Shown one piece after another: positions 10,254 to 53,650 of a DNA stretch of 64,000 nucleotides. Position 1 is the first letter of the stretch. Each line of letters begins with the position of its first letter. The translations under genes were made by a program, and so were the position numbers. Origin of the DNA: an uncultured Erysipelotrichaceae bacterium. Its GTDB lineage: Bacteria > Bacillota_I > Bacilli_A > Erysipelotrichales > Coprobacillaceae. The notes under the pieces are model-generated. The model was not told the origin of the DNA, did no database searches, and was given only the letters and a program-made list of their open reading frames with translations. The DNA lies in contig CAMTOK010000003.1 in the NCBI GenBank assembly GCA_947074115.1, positions 1 through 64,000 of the forward strand. The letters are read 5' to 3'.

Positions 10254-10475
10254 CATATATCATTCGATGATTAGGACTAGTAATTGAAACGTATCTTATA
10301 GAGACCTTGTGGTTGGTGGAAACAAGGAGATGGCGACAATGAACTCACCTATGAGAAGTTAAGATGAACAGAGTAGTCTTAACCGTGAAACTGCGTTAAG
10401 GTGAGAGTGCATGGAAACATGAACTAAGGTGGTACCGCGATCAAATCGTCCTTAGATAGGGCGATTTTTTTATTT
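10254..10475 (+). promoter_or_regulatory. T-box leader (leucine) with terminator
   Basis: The invariant T-box AAGGTGGTACCGCG lies at 10426-10439. A stem I region with an AGTA element and a GAACTCA specifier loop gives candidate specifier CTC (10344-10346), a leucine codon, which fits the downstream leuS. The terminator is AAATCGTCC (10443-10451) pairing with GGGCGATTT (10459-10467), then a T run. Uncharged tRNA-Leu should stabilise the antiterminator and switch leuS on. The leader accounts for most of the 310-bp gap after the ABC pair. Confidence 0.93.
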
Positions 10476-27715: not shown

Positions 27716-27744
27716 TTCACAAATAGTCTATTTTATGGTATTAT
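27716..27744 (+). promoter_or_regulatory. promoter of nrnA operon
   Basis: TTCACA (27716-27721), 17 bp, TATTAT (27739-27744), just ahead of AAGGTGAT and the ATG at 27761. Confidence 0.5.
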
Positions 27745-27760
27745 ATTTAAGGTGATAGAA

Positions 27761-28684
27761 ATGGAACAATTATGGAAAAAAATAGAGGAATATGAAAATA
27801 TTCAAATCTTTAGACATGTTAGACCTGATTTTGATGCTTTTGGTTCACAAATAGGTTTATACAATGCTCTAAAAGAAATGTACCCAAACAAAACAATTTC
27901 ATTGGGTGGCGTAATGGAACACGATTTACTAGATTATTATCCTTCTTTTGAGAATACAACTCATGATGGTGATATTTTAGGAATTGTTGTTGATACAGCA
28001 AATGTCGATCGTATAGATGGTGATATAACTCAATGTTCTTATATTATTAAGATAGATCATCACATTATTGTTGATCAATATGGTGATTTAAATATTGTAG
28101 ATGAAAAAGCTTCATCGGCGAGTGAAGTGGTCACTCTGTTATTAAAAGAAAAGAATGGAGAGAAACCACTTAATCAAAATGCTTCACTAGCGTTATTCTT
28201 AGGCGTTGTTGGTGATACAGGACGATTTATGTATAGTTGTACTGGTGAGAAAACATTTCTAGCAGCTTCATATTTAATGACATCTGGAATCAATGTAGAA
28301 GATGTTTTTTCAAAAATATATATGAAGAAAAAAGTAAGTATTAAAGTTTTACAATTTATCTATTCAAATTATAAAGAACAAGGTAAGATTGCCTACTATA
28401 TATTAACAGCGAAAGATCTTGCTGAGTTAGGGATTTCTAGAGAAGAAGGTTCAAATTATGTGAATACGTTCTCAAACTTTGAAGAATTTGTGGTTTGGAT
28501 AGCTATTACTCAAAACGAGGATGGTACGTATCGTGTGAGTATGAGAAGTCGTGGTGTCGCTATTAATGAAGTTGCGAATCAATTTCATGGCGGTGGACAC
28601 GCAAATGCAAGTGGGGCATCATTGGAAACAATTGAGGAATTGCCAAGCTTGTTAGAAAAATTAGAGGAGAAAATCAATGGATGA
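27761..28684 (+). CDS. nrnA: DHH-DHHA1 phosphoesterase, NrnA-type nanoRNase/pAp phosphatase
   Basis: A 307-residue manganese phosphoesterase. The DHH domain shows RPDFDAFGSQIGLYNAL (motif I), VDTANVDRIDG, and the DHH motif as IKIDHHIIVDQYGDLN; the C-terminal DHHA1 domain carries SMRSRGVAINEVANQFHGGGHANASGA. NrnA degrades 2-5 nt RNAs and dephosphorylates pAp. GTG 27752 is an alternative start, but it forms part of the AAGGTG ribosome site. The last 8 bp overlap the next gene, an unrecognised membrane protein, so the two are translationally coupled. Confidence 0.9.
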   Translation: MEQLWKKIEEYENIQIFRHVRPDFDAFGSQIGLYNALKEMYPNKTISLGGVMEHDLLDYYPSFENTTHDGDILGIVVDTANVDRIDGDITQCSYIIKIDHHIIVDQYGDLNIVDEKASSASEVVTLLLKEKNGEKPLNQNASLALFLGVVGDTGRFMYSCTGEKTFLAASYLMTSGINVEDVFSKIYMKKKVSIKVLQFIYSNYKEQGKIAYYILTAKDLAELGISREEGSNYVNTFSNFEEFVVWIAITQNEDGTYRVSMRSRGVAINEVANQFHGGGHANASGASLETIEELPSLLEKLEEKING

Positions 28685-30335
28685 GTTTTTAAAACAGTTA
28701 TTTGGTGCTGAAATGGGTGAAGCAGCCCAAACAGTTAAAGAGGCACGCAAACCTAATAAAAACGGGACGATTATTGCCTTAGTTTTAAGTATTATTATTT
28801 TTATTGTTTTAGAATATATGGTGTTATTACCTATTAATTTAAGATCACCACAATTTATTATGTTCTTAGTATTTAACTTATTTATTTTCTTTGGGTTAAG
28901 ATCATTATTAACATTAAAATTTGATAAAATATCTAAAGCAGTTTTAACAGTTGCTTTTGTAGGTGTTGCTTATATTGTTATAGGGAATCTTGCAAGTTCA
29001 TCAATCTTTCATGCAACAGCTTATCAAGAACAATTAGATTTAGATAGAACAGCAGATTTCTTTGCGGATAACCCTGTTGTTAATTATCAATCTATTCCAG
29101 TTGTTGATAAAGATTCAGCTGAAAGATTAGGGAATCGTAAAATGGGAGAAATCGTTGATTACGTTTCACAGTTTGAAGTTGATGATGAATATCAACAAAT
29201 TAATTTTAAAGATAAGCCATATCGTGTAACTACGATTTCATATAGTGATTTAATTAAATGGTTTACAAACCATCAAGATGGGTTACCAGCATATATTAAA
29301 GTTGACATGGTGACTCAAGAATCTGAAGTTGTTCGTTTAGAAGAAGGTATGAAATACTCTAATTCAGATTTATTCTTTAGAAATATTTCAAGACATTTAC
29401 GAGTTCTTTATCCAACATTAATGTTTGATACAGCAGCATTCGAAATTGATGATCAAGGAACACCATTCTGGGTAGCACCTGTATTCGAATATAAAATCGG
29501 ATTATTTGGTGGTAAAGATATTACTGGTGCAGTATTAGTTAATGCGTTAAATGGTGATGCTCAATATTATGATATTGAAGACGTTCCTAGCTGGGTTGAC
29601 CGTGTTTACCCTGCTGAACTTATTATTACTCAGTTAGAAAACTGGGGTAAATTTACTAATGGTTATTGGAATACATTATTATCACAAAAAGGTGTGTTAC
29701 AGCCAACTACAGGATATAACTATATTGCATTAAATGATGATGTTTATGTTTATACTGGATTAACATCAGTATCTAGTGACGCATCTAACGTTGGTTTTGC
29801 ATTAATTAATTTAAGAACAAAAGAATCTAAATATTATGCAATTAGTGGTGCTGAAGAATACTCAGCGATGTCTTCTGCAGAAGGTAAAGTACAGCATTTA
29901 CAATATACTGCAACATTCCCAATCTTGATTAATGTTGGTGGTGAACCAACATACTTCCTATCTTTAAAAGATGGTGCTGGATTGGTTAAAAAGTATGCTT
30001 TTGTTTCAGTAGAGAACTACCAAATTGTTGCGGTAGGTGACAGTGTTGCTGAAGCTGAAAGAGAATATTATTCATTATTAAGTGATAATGGAAAAACAGA
30101 TGTAGAGATCTCTGCGGATTCATTAACAGGAAAGATTACAAAATTACAACAAGCTGTCGTGAGTGGTAATACTCATTATTATTTAACGATTGAAGGAAGC
30201 TCTAAAGTCTTTATTGCTCCAATCTCATTAAATGATTATTTACCATTAGCGAAAGTTGGGGATACAGTTGAAATCGAATTCTTAGATGAAGAAGGTTCAA
30301 CAAGTGAAACAATCACATCAATTCAATTTAAATAA
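28677..30335 (+). CDS. unrecognised membrane protein with large extracellular domain
   Basis: A 552-residue protein. A basic cytosolic N-terminus (about 1-30) is followed by three hydrophobic helices: TIIALVLSIIIFIVLEYMVLLPI, FIMFLVFNLFIFFGLRSLLTL and AVLTVAFVGVAYIVIGNLA (about 30-110). About 440 residues of mixed alpha/beta sequence should then lie outside, including YRVTTISYSDLIKWF, FWVAPVFEYKIGLFGGKDITGAVLVNALNG and WVDRVYPAELIITQLENWG. I do not recognise the family and propose no function. It is an intact, AT-rich core-like gene in the same unit as nrnA. A hairpin separates it from the Sel1-repeat gene. Confidence 0.8.
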   Translation: MDEFLKQLFGAEMGEAAQTVKEARKPNKNGTIIALVLSIIIFIVLEYMVLLPINLRSPQFIMFLVFNLFIFFGLRSLLTLKFDKISKAVLTVAFVGVAYIVIGNLASSSIFHATAYQEQLDLDRTADFFADNPVVNYQSIPVVDKDSAERLGNRKMGEIVDYVSQFEVDDEYQQINFKDKPYRVTTISYSDLIKWFTNHQDGLPAYIKVDMVTQESEVVRLEEGMKYSNSDLFFRNISRHLRVLYPTLMFDTAAFEIDDQGTPFWVAPVFEYKIGLFGGKDITGAVLVNALNGDAQYYDIEDVPSWVDRVYPAELIITQLENWGKFTNGYWNTLLSQKGVLQPTTGYNYIALNDDVYVYTGLTSVSSDASNVGFALINLRTKESKYYAISGAEEYSAMSSAEGKVQHLQYTATFPILINVGGEPTYFLSLKDGAGLVKKYAFVSVENYQIVAVGDSVAEAEREYYSLLSDNGKTDVEISADSLTGKITKLQQAVVSGNTHYYLTIEGSSKVFIAPISLNDYLPLAKVGDTVEIEFLDEEGSTSETITSIQFK

Positions 30336-30340
30336 GTAAA

Positions 30341-30365
30341 TAAGAGGTACCTAGTGTACCTCTTA
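30341..30365 (+). terminator. hairpin between the membrane protein and Sel1-repeat genes
   Basis: TAAGAGGTAC (30341-30350) and GTACCTCTTA (30356-30365) form a perfect 10-bp stem with loop CTAGT. The following TCTATTC is only weakly T-rich, so partial termination or an RNA-processing site are both possible. Confidence 0.6.
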
Positions 30366-30385
30366 TCTATTCACGGGGAGACAAA

Positions 30386-33271
30386 ATGGACAAACGTTTG
30401 TATGATTATGAACCATTCTTTAATCAATGGAAAATTAAACATATCATTGAAGTGAACAACGATATCACTTGGGTTTTGTTGTACAATCTTAACTCTTTAA
30501 CAATGAAAACAGCATTAATGAAGGTGAAGAGTTTAGAAGGCAATGCACAACAACTTGATATCATGATTGATAAAACTTTAGAACTTTATGGTGCTTTTGA
30601 TTTGTATCAAGGTCCTTTTTATGAACGTGAAAGTTATTATCGAGAAGAAGATAATCAAATAACTGGGGTGGATTTGTGTTTGCTTTCTCGATGGGATGAG
30701 ATGACTGCGTTAACAGATTCAACTGACTTAGATGATATATATGAACAAGCAGTGTCATTTTTATTTGGGATAGATTGTATTCAGGATGAATATAAAGCAT
30801 TAGAATTGTTTGAATACGGCGCAAGATATAAACACGGACAATGTATAAGTTCATTAGGATATATGTACGAGACAGGTTTTGGTGTAGAAGAAGATTTATA
30901 TAAGGCGGCAGATTACTATGAACAAGCAGCATTTCTTGGGGATGAAGTTGGATTGTTCAATTATGGACTTTGTCATTTAGAAGGTATTGGTATTGAACAA
31001 GATGAAGCAGTCGCTATTCCGTATATTACGCAAGCAGCAGATGCCAAACTGCCACGAGCTATTCTTACACTTGGTGAATGTTATAAAGAAGGCCGCGGCG
31101 TATTGAAGGATGAAGATTATGCATTTGATCTTTATCATGAAGCAGCGAGTCTTGGTTCTATTCAAGCCTATTATTGTCTTGGATATTGTTATGAACATGG
31201 AATTGGTGTCGAAAATAATGATTCAGAAGCTTTCTCATGGTATGAGGTGGCTGCCAATGAAGGTGTGGCTATTGCACAAATACAACTTGGTTATTTTTAT
31301 GAAGTTGGTAAAGCAGTCACAATAGATGAACATATTGCGTTTTATTGGTATAATGAAGCCATGAAACAACACTATATTCCTGCTTATGCTTATGTAGGGT
31401 TTTGTTATGAAAAGGGCATAGGGGTATTAGAAGACAAAGAGGAAGCGAAGGCAATTTATCATAAAGGTGTTGTTCATCATCATCCAAGGTGTTTGTATGC
31501 CTATGCCCAATTGATTGAGGAAGAAGAACCTGAATTATCTTTGGTCTATTTAAAAGAAAGTGCAGATTTAGACTACACTTATGCTATAAATAAATATTCA
31601 TATTATTTACAAAATGGTATTTTAACTCATAAAGATTTTACCCTTGCTTATCAATACTGTTCAAAGGGTGCTTCTTTAGATGATCCAATAGCGTTATATA
31701 ACCTTGCTTATTTTTTTCAGGAAGGTATAGGGACGTTTAAAGATGAATACAAAGCATATGAATGTTATAAAAGATCATCACAGTTAGGCTATGCCCAAGG
31801 TATGAATAGTTTAGGTTATTGTTATGAAAAAGGGATAGGTGTTGATGTTGATCATAAAAAGGCATTACAATGTTATATTGAAGCATCACATCATGGATAT
31901 GAATTAGCAGCACTAAACGTTGCCTATGCCTATGAGCGCGGTGTTGGGTGTCATGTAGATGAAAATAAAGCAGTTGAATATTATGAAAAAGCCATTCAAA
32001 AAGGTGTTTCAAGTGCAATGATGAACTTAGGTGAACTTTTAGAAAACCCAAAACAAATCACACCAGATTACGAACGTGCAAGAGAACTTTATAAATGTGC
32101 AAGTGAACATGGAATGAGTGAAGCAATGATTTCACTTGGGGTCATGTATGAAAAAGGTGTTGGCGTTGATAAAGATGAAACACAAGCTATGTCATATTAT
32201 CAACTTGCTGCATCTCAACAAGATAAAGTTGGTGAGTGTTATCTTGCATATTGTTATGAACAAGGAATTGGTGTTGACGTAGATTTACAAAAAGCATTCT
32301 ATTATTATATGGAGTCTGCGAAACAAGGATTCCCACAAGCACTTTATAAAGTTGCTATGTATTATGAATATGGAAATATTATTGAAGAAGATTTACAAAA
32401 AGCTGTTTCTTATTATACCAAGTCATCACAAAAGAATTTTGCTCCCGCTCATTATCGACTCGGCCGATGTTATGAAAAAGGCATTGGTGTCAAACAAAGT
32501 TATGAGATGGCATATCATCAATATATGAGTGCCTCATTACAAGAGTATCGCCATTCTTATTATGCTTTAGGAAGATTATATGAAAATGGTTATTTTGTAG
32601 ATAAAGACATTAAAATTTCTAAAAACTATTATTTACTTGCTTTAGAACATGGAGTCGATCGAGCTTACTATGCATTAGGTCGTATGTTGTTAAATAATAT
32701 GCAACAACCAAATGATATCTTATTGATTTTTGAGTACTTTAAAACTGCACTTACAAAAGGAATAGATGATGCTGCAATAGAAATAGCGCGTCTGTATAAT
32801 AAAATTCCCGAATTTTACGATATCAAATGTGCAGTTTATTATTATAAAATTGCAGGTGAAAAAGGAAATCGTTATGCATACTATGAGTTAGCGCAATTGT
32901 ATAAGGAATTAGCATTCGGTGAATTTACACCAGATGTCTTACGTTATTACTTATTTGCTGCACAATTAGGACATACGCATTCGCTTGTAGAATTAGGATA
33001 TTATTATCTTTCTATACCAAGAACGATGAATAGTGAATCTCATGCATTTGAATATTTCTTAAGAGCTGCGCTCTTAGATGATATTGATGGAATCTATGAA
33101 CTTTCGCTTTGTTATTATAAAGGGATTGGAACAAGAAAAGATTACAAACTAGCAATCGAATATTGCGAAGATGCTGCATTAAAAGGTCATAATAATGCAT
33201 CGTTATTATTAGAGAAAATTCAACATAAACTAGAAACAAAAGAAAAAGAATATTTAAATCACTTTAGATAG
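30386..33271 (+). CDS. giant Sel1-like repeat protein, about 22 repeats
   Basis: A 961-residue cytosolic-looking protein without signal peptide. After an unrelated head (about 1-120) it is almost wholly Sel1-like TPR repeats of about 36 residues, of the type LGYCYEKGIGVDVDHKKALQCYIEASHHGYE. I count about 22 units, some degenerate (for example YAQLIEEEEPELSLVYLKESAD). Sel1 arrays form a superhelix that binds protein partners. The head (DKRLYDYEPFFNQWKIKHIIEVNNDITWVLLYN) is not recognised. It follows the unknown membrane protein by 50 bp; a joint role at the membrane is possible but unproven. A terminator closes the unit. Confidence 0.9.
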   Translation: MDKRLYDYEPFFNQWKIKHIIEVNNDITWVLLYNLNSLTMKTALMKVKSLEGNAQQLDIMIDKTLELYGAFDLYQGPFYERESYYREEDNQITGVDLCLLSRWDEMTALTDSTDLDDIYEQAVSFLFGIDCIQDEYKALELFEYGARYKHGQCISSLGYMYETGFGVEEDLYKAADYYEQAAFLGDEVGLFNYGLCHLEGIGIEQDEAVAIPYITQAADAKLPRAILTLGECYKEGRGVLKDEDYAFDLYHEAASLGSIQAYYCLGYCYEHGIGVENNDSEAFSWYEVAANEGVAIAQIQLGYFYEVGKAVTIDEHIAFYWYNEAMKQHYIPAYAYVGFCYEKGIGVLEDKEEAKAIYHKGVVHHHPRCLYAYAQLIEEEEPELSLVYLKESADLDYTYAINKYSYYLQNGILTHKDFTLAYQYCSKGASLDDPIALYNLAYFFQEGIGTFKDEYKAYECYKRSSQLGYAQGMNSLGYCYEKGIGVDVDHKKALQCYIEASHHGYELAALNVAYAYERGVGCHVDENKAVEYYEKAIQKGVSSAMMNLGELLENPKQITPDYERARELYKCASEHGMSEAMISLGVMYEKGVGVDKDETQAMSYYQLAASQQDKVGECYLAYCYEQGIGVDVDLQKAFYYYMESAKQGFPQALYKVAMYYEYGNIIEEDLQKAVSYYTKSSQKNFAPAHYRLGRCYEKGIGVKQSYEMAYHQYMSASLQEYRHSYYALGRLYENGYFVDKDIKISKNYYLLALEHGVDRAYYALGRMLLNNMQQPNDILLIFEYFKTALTKGIDDAAIEIARLYNKIPEFYDIKCAVYYYKIAGEKGNRYAYYELAQLYKELAFGEFTPDVLRYYLFAAQLGHTHSLVELGYYYLSIPRTMNSESHAFEYFLRAALLDDIDGIYELSLCYYKGIGTRKDYKLAIEYCEDAALKGHNNASLLLEKIQHKLETKEKEYLNHFR

Positions 33272-33295
33272 AAGACCAAACTTGGTCTTCTTTTT
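33271..33295 (+). terminator. intrinsic terminator of Sel1-repeat gene
   Basis: GAAGACCA (33271-33278), loop AACT, TGGTCTTC (33283-33290), TTTTT. The stem starts at the last base of the TAG stop codon. Confidence 0.88.
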
Positions 33296-33400: not shown

Positions 33401-34075
33401 ATGAAATCAAAAATACTTGTTGTAGACGATGAAGAACACATTAGAGAATTGATTTGCTTTTATCTTAATAAGGAAGGCTTTTCAGTAATCGAAGCAGAGA
33501 ATGGAGAAGAAGCTCTAGACCTATTAGAAAAAGAATATGTTGATTTGGCAATTGTTGATATTATGATGCCAGTCATGAATGGTTTTGATATGGTTGAAGA
33601 ACTGAGATCATTTAAAGACACTCCAGTGATCATGTTGACGGCTAAAGCACAATCAACTGATAAACTTAGAGGATTTTCTCTTGGCATTGATGACTACGTC
33701 ACAAAACCATTTGATCCTGAAGAACTTATGGCACGTGTAAAAACAATATTGAAGCGTTACAGCATTAATGCTCAAAATGTTGTTCAATTGCATGATGTTA
33801 TTTTTGATGGTGATAAATATGAAATTAGATATCAAGAAGAAATTATTCATTTACCATTAAAACAATTTGAACTTGCTTTTGAACTTGCTAAAAATCCAAA
33901 TCAAATCTTTACAAGAGAACAATTAATTGAAAAAATCTGGGGTATGGATTATGACGGTTTTGACCGTACTGTTGATGTTCATATCAAGAGAGTTCGTGAA
34001 AATTTAGGACATCTTCCTGGATTTAAAGTTGTTACAGTGAGAGGCTTAGGTTATAAAATAGAGGTCGATCGATGA
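33401..34075 (+). CDS. OmpR-family response regulator
   Basis: A 224-residue regulator. The receiver domain (1-120) has DDE (9-11), phosphoacceptor D53 in VDIMMP, the T in MLTAKA and K in TKPFDP. The winged-helix Trans_reg_C domain (about 130-222) ends with RTVDVHIKRVRENLGHLPGFKVVTVRGLGYKIE. It overlaps the histidine kinase gene by 4 bp (ATGA). It resembles PhoP/WalR-type regulators, but the specific regulon cannot be told; the walHIJ genes that usually accompany walRK are absent. Confidence 0.92.
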   Translation: MKSKILVVDDEEHIRELICFYLNKEGFSVIEAENGEEALDLLEKEYVDLAIVDIMMPVMNGFDMVEELRSFKDTPVIMLTAKAQSTDKLRGFSLGIDDYVTKPFDPEELMARVKTILKRYSINAQNVVQLHDVIFDGDKYEIRYQEEIIHLPLKQFELAFELAKNPNQIFTREQLIEKIWGMDYDGFDRTVDVHIKRVRENLGHLPGFKVVTVRGLGYKIEVDR

Positions 34076-35475
34076 AATCGATATATGGTAAACTCATATT
34101 AGGTTTCTTAGTCAGTATCTTTATAAGTTTCTCAGTTGCTGGATACTTTTCATTAAAGAAAAACACCAATGATCTTGGTGTTTTAACAATAGAAGAATTA
34201 GAGTCATCATCTGACTTTGTTGCATTACTCATTGAAAAAAATCACCAAGATGATATTCAAGATATGTTAGAAGGATATTGCTTAACATCTGAAATAGATG
34301 TCAGTATTTATACAACTGCACAGGAAGCACGCTTTGGATCTCATTCCATTTCATTGAATTATGAGTTGGTTGATAAATTGATTTTAGAGACTGGTGAAAA
34401 TATATCAATGAAAGAAGCGACATATAGAAAGTATGCAAAATCATATGAAATCAATGGAGAAAACTTTGTTATTTATGTTCAAAAGGATGTATCTAAAAGA
34501 GAAATGATCTTTATTGAATCAGGTGTTATTGCTATATTTATGATGTTAGCAGCAGGAAGTATTATTTTCTTTATCATTGCTGATATTATTGTTAAACCAA
34601 TTTCAAGACTGATTAAGGCAACACAAGAATTATCAAATGGTAATTATCGCGTACGCGTTAATTACACAGGTAATGATGAAATCGCAACACTCAATAGAAA
34701 CTTTAACTTAATGGCGCAACAATTAGGAAAACAAGAAGAAGTGAGACAACAATTTATTTCAGATGTTTCTCATGAATTCCAAACACCTTTAACAGCGATA
34801 CAAGGATTCGCTACGATTATAAAAAATGAAGAATTAGCACCTGAACAAAAACTAAAATATGCTGATATCATATTATTCCATAGTAAACGTTTGTCAACGT
34901 TATCTAGAAATATGTTACAGTTAACATTATTAGAAGGTGAAGATGTTAAATTAGAATTGAGTGAGTTTTCATTAATAGGTCAATTAAGACGTGTTATTGA
35001 TACACAAAATTCACTAGCACAGGGTAAAGATATTGAAATAGAATTTACATGTCCAAAACATGATGTTTTAATAGAAGCTGATGAATCAAGGTTAGAACAA
35101 GTATGGATCAACCTGATTAACAATGCTATTAAGTATACACAAGATCACGGAGTCGTGATGATTGATATAAAAAAAGCATCATCATATGTAGAAGTGACAA
35201 TATCAGATACAGGTGTAGGTATGAGTAAAGAAGCAATGGCTCATATATTTGAGCGTTTCTATAGACAAGATAAATCTCGTTCAATTGAAGGAAATGGTTT
35301 AGGTTTGTCTATTGTTAAACGTATTGTTGATTTGCATAATGGGAATATCGATGTCGTTTCTAGGGAAGACGGGGGAAGTCGTTTTATTGTAAAAATTCCT
35401 CAAGAAAAAGTATTTAATATTTCTGACAAATTAAACATAGCCAAAATGGTAAAGACTCGAGAAGGGGCAGAATAG
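34072..35475 (+). CDS. sensor histidine kinase (HAMP-HisKA-HATPase)
   Basis: A 467-residue membrane kinase: a first helix (about 7-27), an extracytoplasmic domain of about 130 residues, a second helix (VIAIFMMLAAGSIIFFIIADIIV), HAMP (KPISRLIKATQELSNGNYRVRV), HisKA with H234 in SDVSHEFQTPLTAIQGF, and HATPase with INNAIKYTQ, DTGVGMSKE and GNGLGLSIV. The H-box reads SHEFQTPL where most read SHELRTPL. There is no PAS domain, unlike WalK. It pairs with the upstream regulator and ends 1 bp before smc. Confidence 0.92.
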   Translation: MKSIYGKLILGFLVSIFISFSVAGYFSLKKNTNDLGVLTIEELESSSDFVALLIEKNHQDDIQDMLEGYCLTSEIDVSIYTTAQEARFGSHSISLNYELVDKLILETGENISMKEATYRKYAKSYEINGENFVIYVQKDVSKREMIFIESGVIAIFMMLAAGSIIFFIIADIIVKPISRLIKATQELSNGNYRVRVNYTGNDEIATLNRNFNLMAQQLGKQEEVRQQFISDVSHEFQTPLTAIQGFATIIKNEELAPEQKLKYADIILFHSKRLSTLSRNMLQLTLLEGEDVKLELSEFSLIGQLRRVIDTQNSLAQGKDIEIEFTCPKHDVLIEADESRLEQVWINLINNAIKYTQDHGVVMIDIKKASSYVEVTISDTGVGMSKEAMAHIFERFYRQDKSRSIEGNGLGLSIVKRIVDLHNGNIDVVSREDGGSRFIVKIPQEKVFNISDKLNIAKMVKTREGAE

Positions 35476-53556: not shown

Positions 53557-53650
53557 GCTAATGTTGTAGGCCTCTAGCTACAACCGCGCATAAAAGGTAT
53601 TAAAGCTTAGCTGCCTTGGTTGGCGAGTCTTAGATCAAATATATAAAGGA
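53557..53650 (+). promoter_or_regulatory. rplU leader (probable L21 leader)
   Basis: GTTGTAG (53563-53569) pairs with CTACAAC (53578-53584), then come ACCGCGCATAAAAGG and TAAAGCTTAGCTGCC...TTGGCGAGTCTTAGATC. The position, length (about 100 nt) and hairpin fit the Bacillota L21 leader, a conserved RNA upstream of rplU. Assigned by resemblance, not by a model search. Confidence 0.65.

Follow-up and report, generated by a model that had tools for sequence, protein, structure and literature searches.

The locus and its transcription signals

The window analyzed here is a 64,000-nt stretch of contig CAMTOK010000003.1 from an uncultured Erysipelotrichaceae bacterium. The three genes under study span positions 27761-33271 and lie in line on the plus strand: nrnA (27761..28684), the gene of a 552-aa membrane protein of an unnamed family, here called M552 (28677..30335), and the gene of a 961-aa Sel1-repeat protein (30386..33271). 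These positions, and the 8-bp overlap of nrnA with the M552 gene (28677-28684), agree with those given in an earlier note on this DNA. Our preferred reading, a tentative one that we place somewhat short of an even chance, is that the trio is a lineage-specific operon rather than one pathway, and that M552 is a membrane-anchored, PepSY-like regulator of the cell envelope. Relatives were compared in a set of 40 genomes, that is, the genome of the window (G000) and 39 others.

The gene in front of nrnA is ackA, and genes of a response regulator and a histidine kinase follow the Sel1-repeat gene; beyond the kinase gene lies an open reading frame (ORF) that resembles SMC, as judged by eye. The nrnA, M552, and Sel1-repeat genes very likely form one transcript, since the first two overlap, in seven relatives the M552 stop and the Sel1-repeat start are at most a few dozen bases apart or the two genes overlap, a terminator-like hairpin with a T-run follows the Sel1-repeat gene (33270..33291, plus strand), and the response-regulator gene has its own promoter-like box, nearly identical in the five relatives examined. 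The terminator scan yielded 12 terminator-like sites on both strands of the region, compared with a shuffle mean of 3.0. A candidate sigma-70-like promoter precedes nrnA on the plus strand (27716..27744, TTCACA-17-TATTAT, with TG before the second hexamer, 10/12 consensus matches); the scan was barely above chance in the region (63 sites against a shuffle mean of 53.6, standard deviation 6.8), and the value of this candidate lies in its position only. The response regulator/histidine kinase pair (33401-35475) is kept in seven relatives, at 85-89% and 64-69% identity, respectively, mostly together with the SMC-like gene.

The hairpin noticed earlier between the M552 and Sel1-repeat genes (30337..30369, plus strand) is real, with a fold energy of -17.9 kcal/mol for an 84-base stretch. 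The coding strand shows no T-run there, the terminator scan reported it for the minus strand only, and it was not seen in the seven relatives examined, being private to the genome of the window among the eight. We therefore rejected it as a conserved control element, and it is probably incidental.

Domain structure and fold of M552

Hydropathy gives three hydrophobic segments near the N-terminus of M552 (residues 32-50, 60-78, and 88-106), and the predicted structure has helices at residues 30-49, 58-79, and 84-106; the three transmembrane helices thus occupy residues 30-106 (28764..28994, plus strand). The large C-terminal part would lie outside the cell, because positive charges are found at the N-terminus and in the stretch that joins helix 2 to helix 3. 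Three helices with a large outer domain had been proposed for this protein before; the computed segments bear out the helices, and the charge pattern fits the outer placement. The whole protein was modeled with a predicted local distance difference test score (pLDDT) of 86.9, and the outer core alone (residues 116-476; 29022..30104, plus strand) with a pLDDT of 90.5 and a predicted template modeling score of 0.86. Residues 477-552 (30105..30332, plus strand) are predicted to form a C-terminal OB fold, with a VIA Z of 9.7 and a root-mean-square deviation (rmsd) of 2.5 over 75 residues to 4gs3, and Z 9.2 to both 6cqo and 3f2b; we take all three to be OB folds.

The earlier note could not place the protein, and sequence searches did not place it either. 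Searches of Pfam, NCBIfam, PHROG, and PDB sequences with M552 gave nothing convincing (no Pfam or NCBIfam family over its cut-off; phrog_13440 at E 0.034; PDB at E above 0.3), and neither did the core and the aligned members against Pfam and PDB. A match to DUF4181 (PF13789) stayed below the cut-off (E 0.0071, 17.2 bits against 25.4) and was confined to residues 3-94. Three phage or plasmid relatives gave weak family matches, of which the best, to DUF6056 (E 2.5e-4), did not reach the cut-off. Among the papers listed in searches of an open-licence library we recognized none on M552, which cannot be looked up by name. The Foldseek search with the whole model returned low full-length template modeling scores (TM-scores), save for the unnamed viral protein A0A6G5YLZ4 (E 3.3e-34, TM 0.66/0.62).

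The fold of the core is more informative. When 993 chains were re-aligned to it, a list from which the absence of a family is no evidence against that family, only two reached Z 5, the third-best chain standing at Z 4.1. The first is 4exr, the lipoprotein CD1622 of Clostridioides difficile (Z 6.7, 119 residues, rmsd 9.0), and the second is 5boi, the C-terminal domain of YpeB (Z 5.4, 124 residues, rmsd 14.0); Z below 8 may mean a mere common arrangement, and the rmsd of both alignments is very large, which counts against the reading proposed here. The YpeB domain consists of three PepSY motifs according to PMC12331253, and 5BOI serves as a PepSY reference in PMC10653890. In its turn, 4exr is matched in sequence (E 1.3e-4) by a tandem-PepSY protein of a related genome, which was itself identified via PF03413. 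The PepSY topology, described in PMC10653890 as a helix and then four antiparallel strands, may have a counterpart in the M552 model, where a helix and four strands occur in this order at residues 237-299 and 394-454, the comparison being one of element order. Thus a PepSY-like fold of the M552 core is moderately supported by the model, and M552 is not a PepSY member by sequence; we infer PepSY ancestry. An internal duplication of the core, at which the order of elements hints, was not supported by profile comparison.

Lyases, sialidases, and fructosyl enzymes abound in the Foldseek list obtained with the core, and this could mean that the outer domain, instead of being a PepSY-type regulator, acts as an enzyme or a ligand-binding sensor. 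The 50 rows shown have TM-scores of at most 0.23 and rmsd above 10, none of these matches reaches Z 5 on re-alignment, and no family model matches; we consider this alternative rather unlikely, although it gains from the conservation described below.

Distribution and conservation of M552

M552 is present in 31 of the 40 genomes. A sample of 392 genomes from its phylum group gave 58 with a match, of which three are marginal (E 7.6e-5 to 8e-4). At least 559 stretches in named genomes encode relatives; the best 80 show 45-71% identity, and many of them belong to Lachnospiraceae by title. The genome G017 has two M552 paralogs (L207 and L208), one linked to nrnA (50% identity) and one elsewhere (36%).

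In 80 core sequences, at 41-81% identity to the protein of the window, 43 columns are invariant. M552 is better conserved than the adjacent NrnA in 15 of the 16 linked relatives and equally conserved in the remaining one (G017), which is striking for an outer domain. Further, twelve positions (Y206, R239, E256, G261, P263, G293, P304, D308, G373, T381, A397, and P415) are identical in 11/11 viral, plasmid, and IMG/VR rows, a count that includes the probably bacterial L246 and the near-identical pair L171 and L257, and in at least 96% of 70 cellular rows. Both the very high conservation and the invariant charged residues, phage copies included, would also suit an enzyme or a sensor.

Phage, plasmid, and viral relatives

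A tblastn search detected M552 relatives in 11 phage records among 50,697. Six of them are named and represent four phages: 521B, SAC12B, and vB_Lcr_AB1 of Lactobacillus, the first two with a pair of records each, and Efs 1-1-1 of Enterococcus. The remaining five, 'Bacteriophage sp.' records from human faeces without annotation, may be bacterial DNA and were not counted as phage; the same applies to L246, L247, and L248. The three Lactobacillus phages carry full-length divergent copies, that of 521B being annotated as a 'membrane associated protein', and the match in Efs 1-1-1 covers 75% of M552. Relatives also occur on Ligilactobacillus salivarius plasmids (29 records) and at 14 IMG/VR loci, on contigs of 14 to 508 kb (the largest of 507,910 bases). 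The 521B protein finds four IMG/VR loci, two of them on contigs already found with M552 and one on a contig as long as SAC12B. Between two and four hydrophobic segments are retained near the N-terminus in five of the viral copies and in one plasmid copy. In the tree, Lactobacillus-type rows (five viral, one plasmid) group together as a single clade of six with support 100.

These copies raise the possibility that M552 is an envelope gate or receptor tied to phage entry or exclusion, and that phages carry copies to alter it. Among ten tested neighbors of the IMG/VR relatives, four, all on L252 or L253, match PHROG families, for instance dihydrofolate reductase and metallo-phosphoesterase, which, like the divergent full-length copies, is in line with this idea; the six on L249, L250, L254, and L256 have no PHROG match. 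Since only four named phages among all the records searched have a relative, and the host genes are widespread and found in varied places, as expected of a housekeeping factor, we regard a role in entry or exclusion as distinctly unlikely. A wider proposal seems improbable to us too, if slightly less so: M552 would found an ancient unnamed family of envelope coordinators shared by Firmicutes and phages (the latter apparently up to jumbo size), and the phage copies would take over or block the host version at the cytoplasmic membrane during infection.

Two further matches may be mentioned here. On L250 and L251 (7438-8001), the ORF adjoining the M552 relative resembles translation initiation factor IF-3 by eye. 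Four Vibrio plasmid records (H63-H66) match about half of the M552 core at about 22% identity (E 2e-4 to 7e-4), which could be a far branch or chance.

The Sel1-repeat protein

The 961-aa protein matches Pfam Sel1 above the cut-off in 16 stretches (E 3.9e-115, 372.7 bits), and a model iterated from five seeds finds 17 repeats, compared with none in one shuffled copy. The repeats are thus far beyond chance, and the count of about 22 proposed earlier is somewhat high unless degenerate repeats are included. Because hydropathy reveals no hydrophobic segment, the protein is probably cytosolic, as had been suggested. It resembles Sel1-repeat scaffolds in its repeats and differs from them in a distinct N-terminal domain (about residues 1-115; 30386..30730, plus strand), in which an alignment of 14 members shows the motifs R...YEP.F and E....E......G.D.C.L.

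This domain has no convincing Pfam match and no PDB sequence match. It is found in 16 of the 40 genomes, all of one family, the match in G001 being weak and partial. In five genomes it lies not behind M552 but near an FtsW/RodA-type gene, identified by Pfam in G003, G011, G013, and G020 and by likeness to the G011 gene in G023, where a further ORF stands between; in G001 and G002 it occurs at other places. The candidate identity of a degenerate kinase N-lobe was not supported, since hhalign gave a probability of 0.4% against 12 kinases of relatives, in a comparison that left out the L228 subfamily, the one alike by eye, and none of the 14 members has a Pfam kinase match.

Several loci show multiple Sel1-type genes. 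Two tandem genes with the same N-terminal domain stand behind M552 at L243 (G007) and L244 (G022); the second gene is short (391 and 201 aa, respectively), with further repeat-coding matches beyond it. On contig C19 of G022 (L235), very large Sel1-type repeat genes, of 1038, 604, and 1093 aa, directly follow one another.

NrnA and the linkage of the three genes

The 307-aa nrnA product is a DHH/DHHA1 phosphoesterase, like the NrnA nanoRNase in having both domains above the Pfam cut-offs (DHH, E 1.3e-15; DHHA1, E 9e-16) and unlike it in a score below the NCBIfam equivalog cut-off (218.5 bits against 350). Translation more likely starts from the ATG at position 27761 than from the GTG at 27752, which falls within the stretch AAGGTG, similar to a ribosome-binding site. 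NrnA-like matches occur in all 40 genomes, that of G001 being weak and within a 654-aa frame.

M552 adjoins nrnA in 17 genomes (G000, G003-G007, G009, G011, G012, G016-G018, G020-G023, and G034) and lies away from it in the other 14 of the 31 with M552 (G002, G008, G010, G013-G015, G019, G024, G025, G030-G032, G035, and G036). The complete trio was found in 9/40 genomes of seven genera (G000, G005, G006, G007, G012, where it is split between contigs, G016, G018, G021, and G022). In the tree, 16 of the 17 nrnA-linked M552 rows share one clade of 18 with two unlinked rows, and the linkage is thus mainly one inherited arrangement; the nrnA-linked G034, from another family, falls outside this main clade. 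Five genomes (G003, G004, G009, G017, and G020) keep the order nrnA, M552, response regulator, kinase, and SMC-like gene without Sel1, so that the Sel1-repeat gene looks like an insert into it.

In 77 loci from named genomes, which are the best-scoring M552 loci and not a random sample, the gene directly ahead of M552 is trkH in 22, prfC in eight, and nrnA in six, of which at least four appear already counted among the relatives (G004, G006, G012, and G016). For TrkH, TrkA, and RF3, Pfam confirmed one representative each. In many Clostridia M552 is away from nrnA, often behind trkH. Apart from nrnA and trkH the neighbors vary and gave no result as a functional clue.

The earlier note had suggested that the three genes could form an envelope-to-nucleotide signaling or transport module. 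One could think of c-di-AMP or phosphoadenosine phosphate (pAp) as the nucleotide, with potassium transport as a second link: potassium uptake is controlled by c-di-AMP, trkH is frequent ahead of M552, and the trio is retained in nine genomes. Against this, nrnA and M552 are apart in nearly half of the genomes with M552, and the trkH and nrnA contexts never overlap in the 77 loci, trkH being ahead in 22 of these only. What survives is one probable transcript kept within a lineage. The functional link to nucleotide turnover, with nrnA directly ahead in so few of the named genomes, is not supported, and we consider such a module very unlikely. Unlinked occurrence of the genes in relatives, which the note had named as an argument against its proposal, was largely what we found, the Sel1 N-terminal domain also being beside FtsW/RodA in 5 of the 16 genomes that have it. 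M552 does not need nrnA, and the trio travels together within the lineage.

Other features of the window

Three RNA elements score above the Rfam gathering score: a T-box leader at 10258-10456 (137.7 bits), an S-adenosylmethionine (SAM) riboswitch at 2448-2544 (53.2 bits), and a ribosomal protein L21 leader at 53572-53640 (50.7 bits). A partial tRNA at 1-52 on the minus strand is cut by the window start and is not listed by ARAGORN.

M552 as a candidate envelope regulator

According to our preferred reading, M552 would sit in the cytoplasmic membrane and hold its large outer domain, made of PepSY-like alpha-beta4 units and the C-terminal OB fold, just above it. It would bind and steer a cell-wall enzyme or another envelope machine via its helices and outer domain, acting like the tandem-PepSY membrane proteins YpeB, TseB, and CopD, and would itself be no enzyme. 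The Sel1-repeat protein would serve as a cytosolic scaffold, an optional extra acquired in a few genera, and nrnA would be carried along in the same transcript; as a speculation, the scaffold could meet the N-terminal tail of M552. We suggest a regulator of the PepSY type because the only stand-out fold matches of the confidently modeled core are two tandem-PepSY proteins; the helix-plus-four-strand units, the high conservation, the invariant positions, and the Sel1 domain beside FtsW/RodA in five genomes point in the same direction. An envelope enzyme as the partner is an inference.

Known systems offer a measure for this proposal. TseB and CopD, with two PepSY domains each, bind elongation penicillin-binding proteins (PBPs), CopD via its helices and a short cytosolic part, and are coordinators rather than enzymes, as PMC10653890 describes them; the same paper notes that YpeB contributes to the stability of its partner, the spore lytic enzyme SleB. 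M552 would share with TseB and CopD the membrane anchor and outer PepSY-like units, but its length is roughly threefold theirs, and with its three helices and additional OB fold it departs from their plan of a single helix, two PepSY domains, and nothing else. With YpeB it would share an outer domain of tandem PepSY-type units, differing in its three helices, its C-terminal OB fold, and the lack of a PF03413 match. CD1622, the best fold match, is a lipoprotein with a 174-residue chain and, unlike M552, has neither the helices nor the OB fold. Our best guess is that M552 has the plan of the TseB/CopD/YpeB type in an enlarged form.

Several observations weigh against this reading. PF03413 matches none of 80 M552 core sequences at E up to 1 and no M552 locus in the 21 genomes searched with the model, and the M552 locus is not among the seven PepSY stretches of its own genome. 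The tandem-PepSY protein that matches 4exr did not retrieve 5boi by sequence, and a four-unit internal repeat of the core lacks significance at the sequence level, the best probability being 33%. The conserved polar residues R239, E256, D308, and T381 could equally fit an active or ligand site. No cell-wall-enzyme gene was recognized as a recurrent neighbor, 40 further loci (seven of them nrnA-linked) show mixed, mostly unidentified neighbors, and potassium uptake is the commonest front neighbor in the named genomes; no PBP gene was recognized among the neighbors identified. Finally, the FtsW/RodA gene near the Sel1-repeat gene is divergently transcribed.

M552 represents an unnamed family, encoded in at least 559 public stretches and some phages, yet without a Pfam or NCBIfam model. 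The phage copies are natural variants, and expressing them could reveal the role of the host protein. If M552 is indeed a PepSY-type coordinator of wall growth, the theme known from TseB, CopD, and YpeB would be extended to Erysipelotrichales and Lachnospiraceae, groups poorly served by model-organism genetics.

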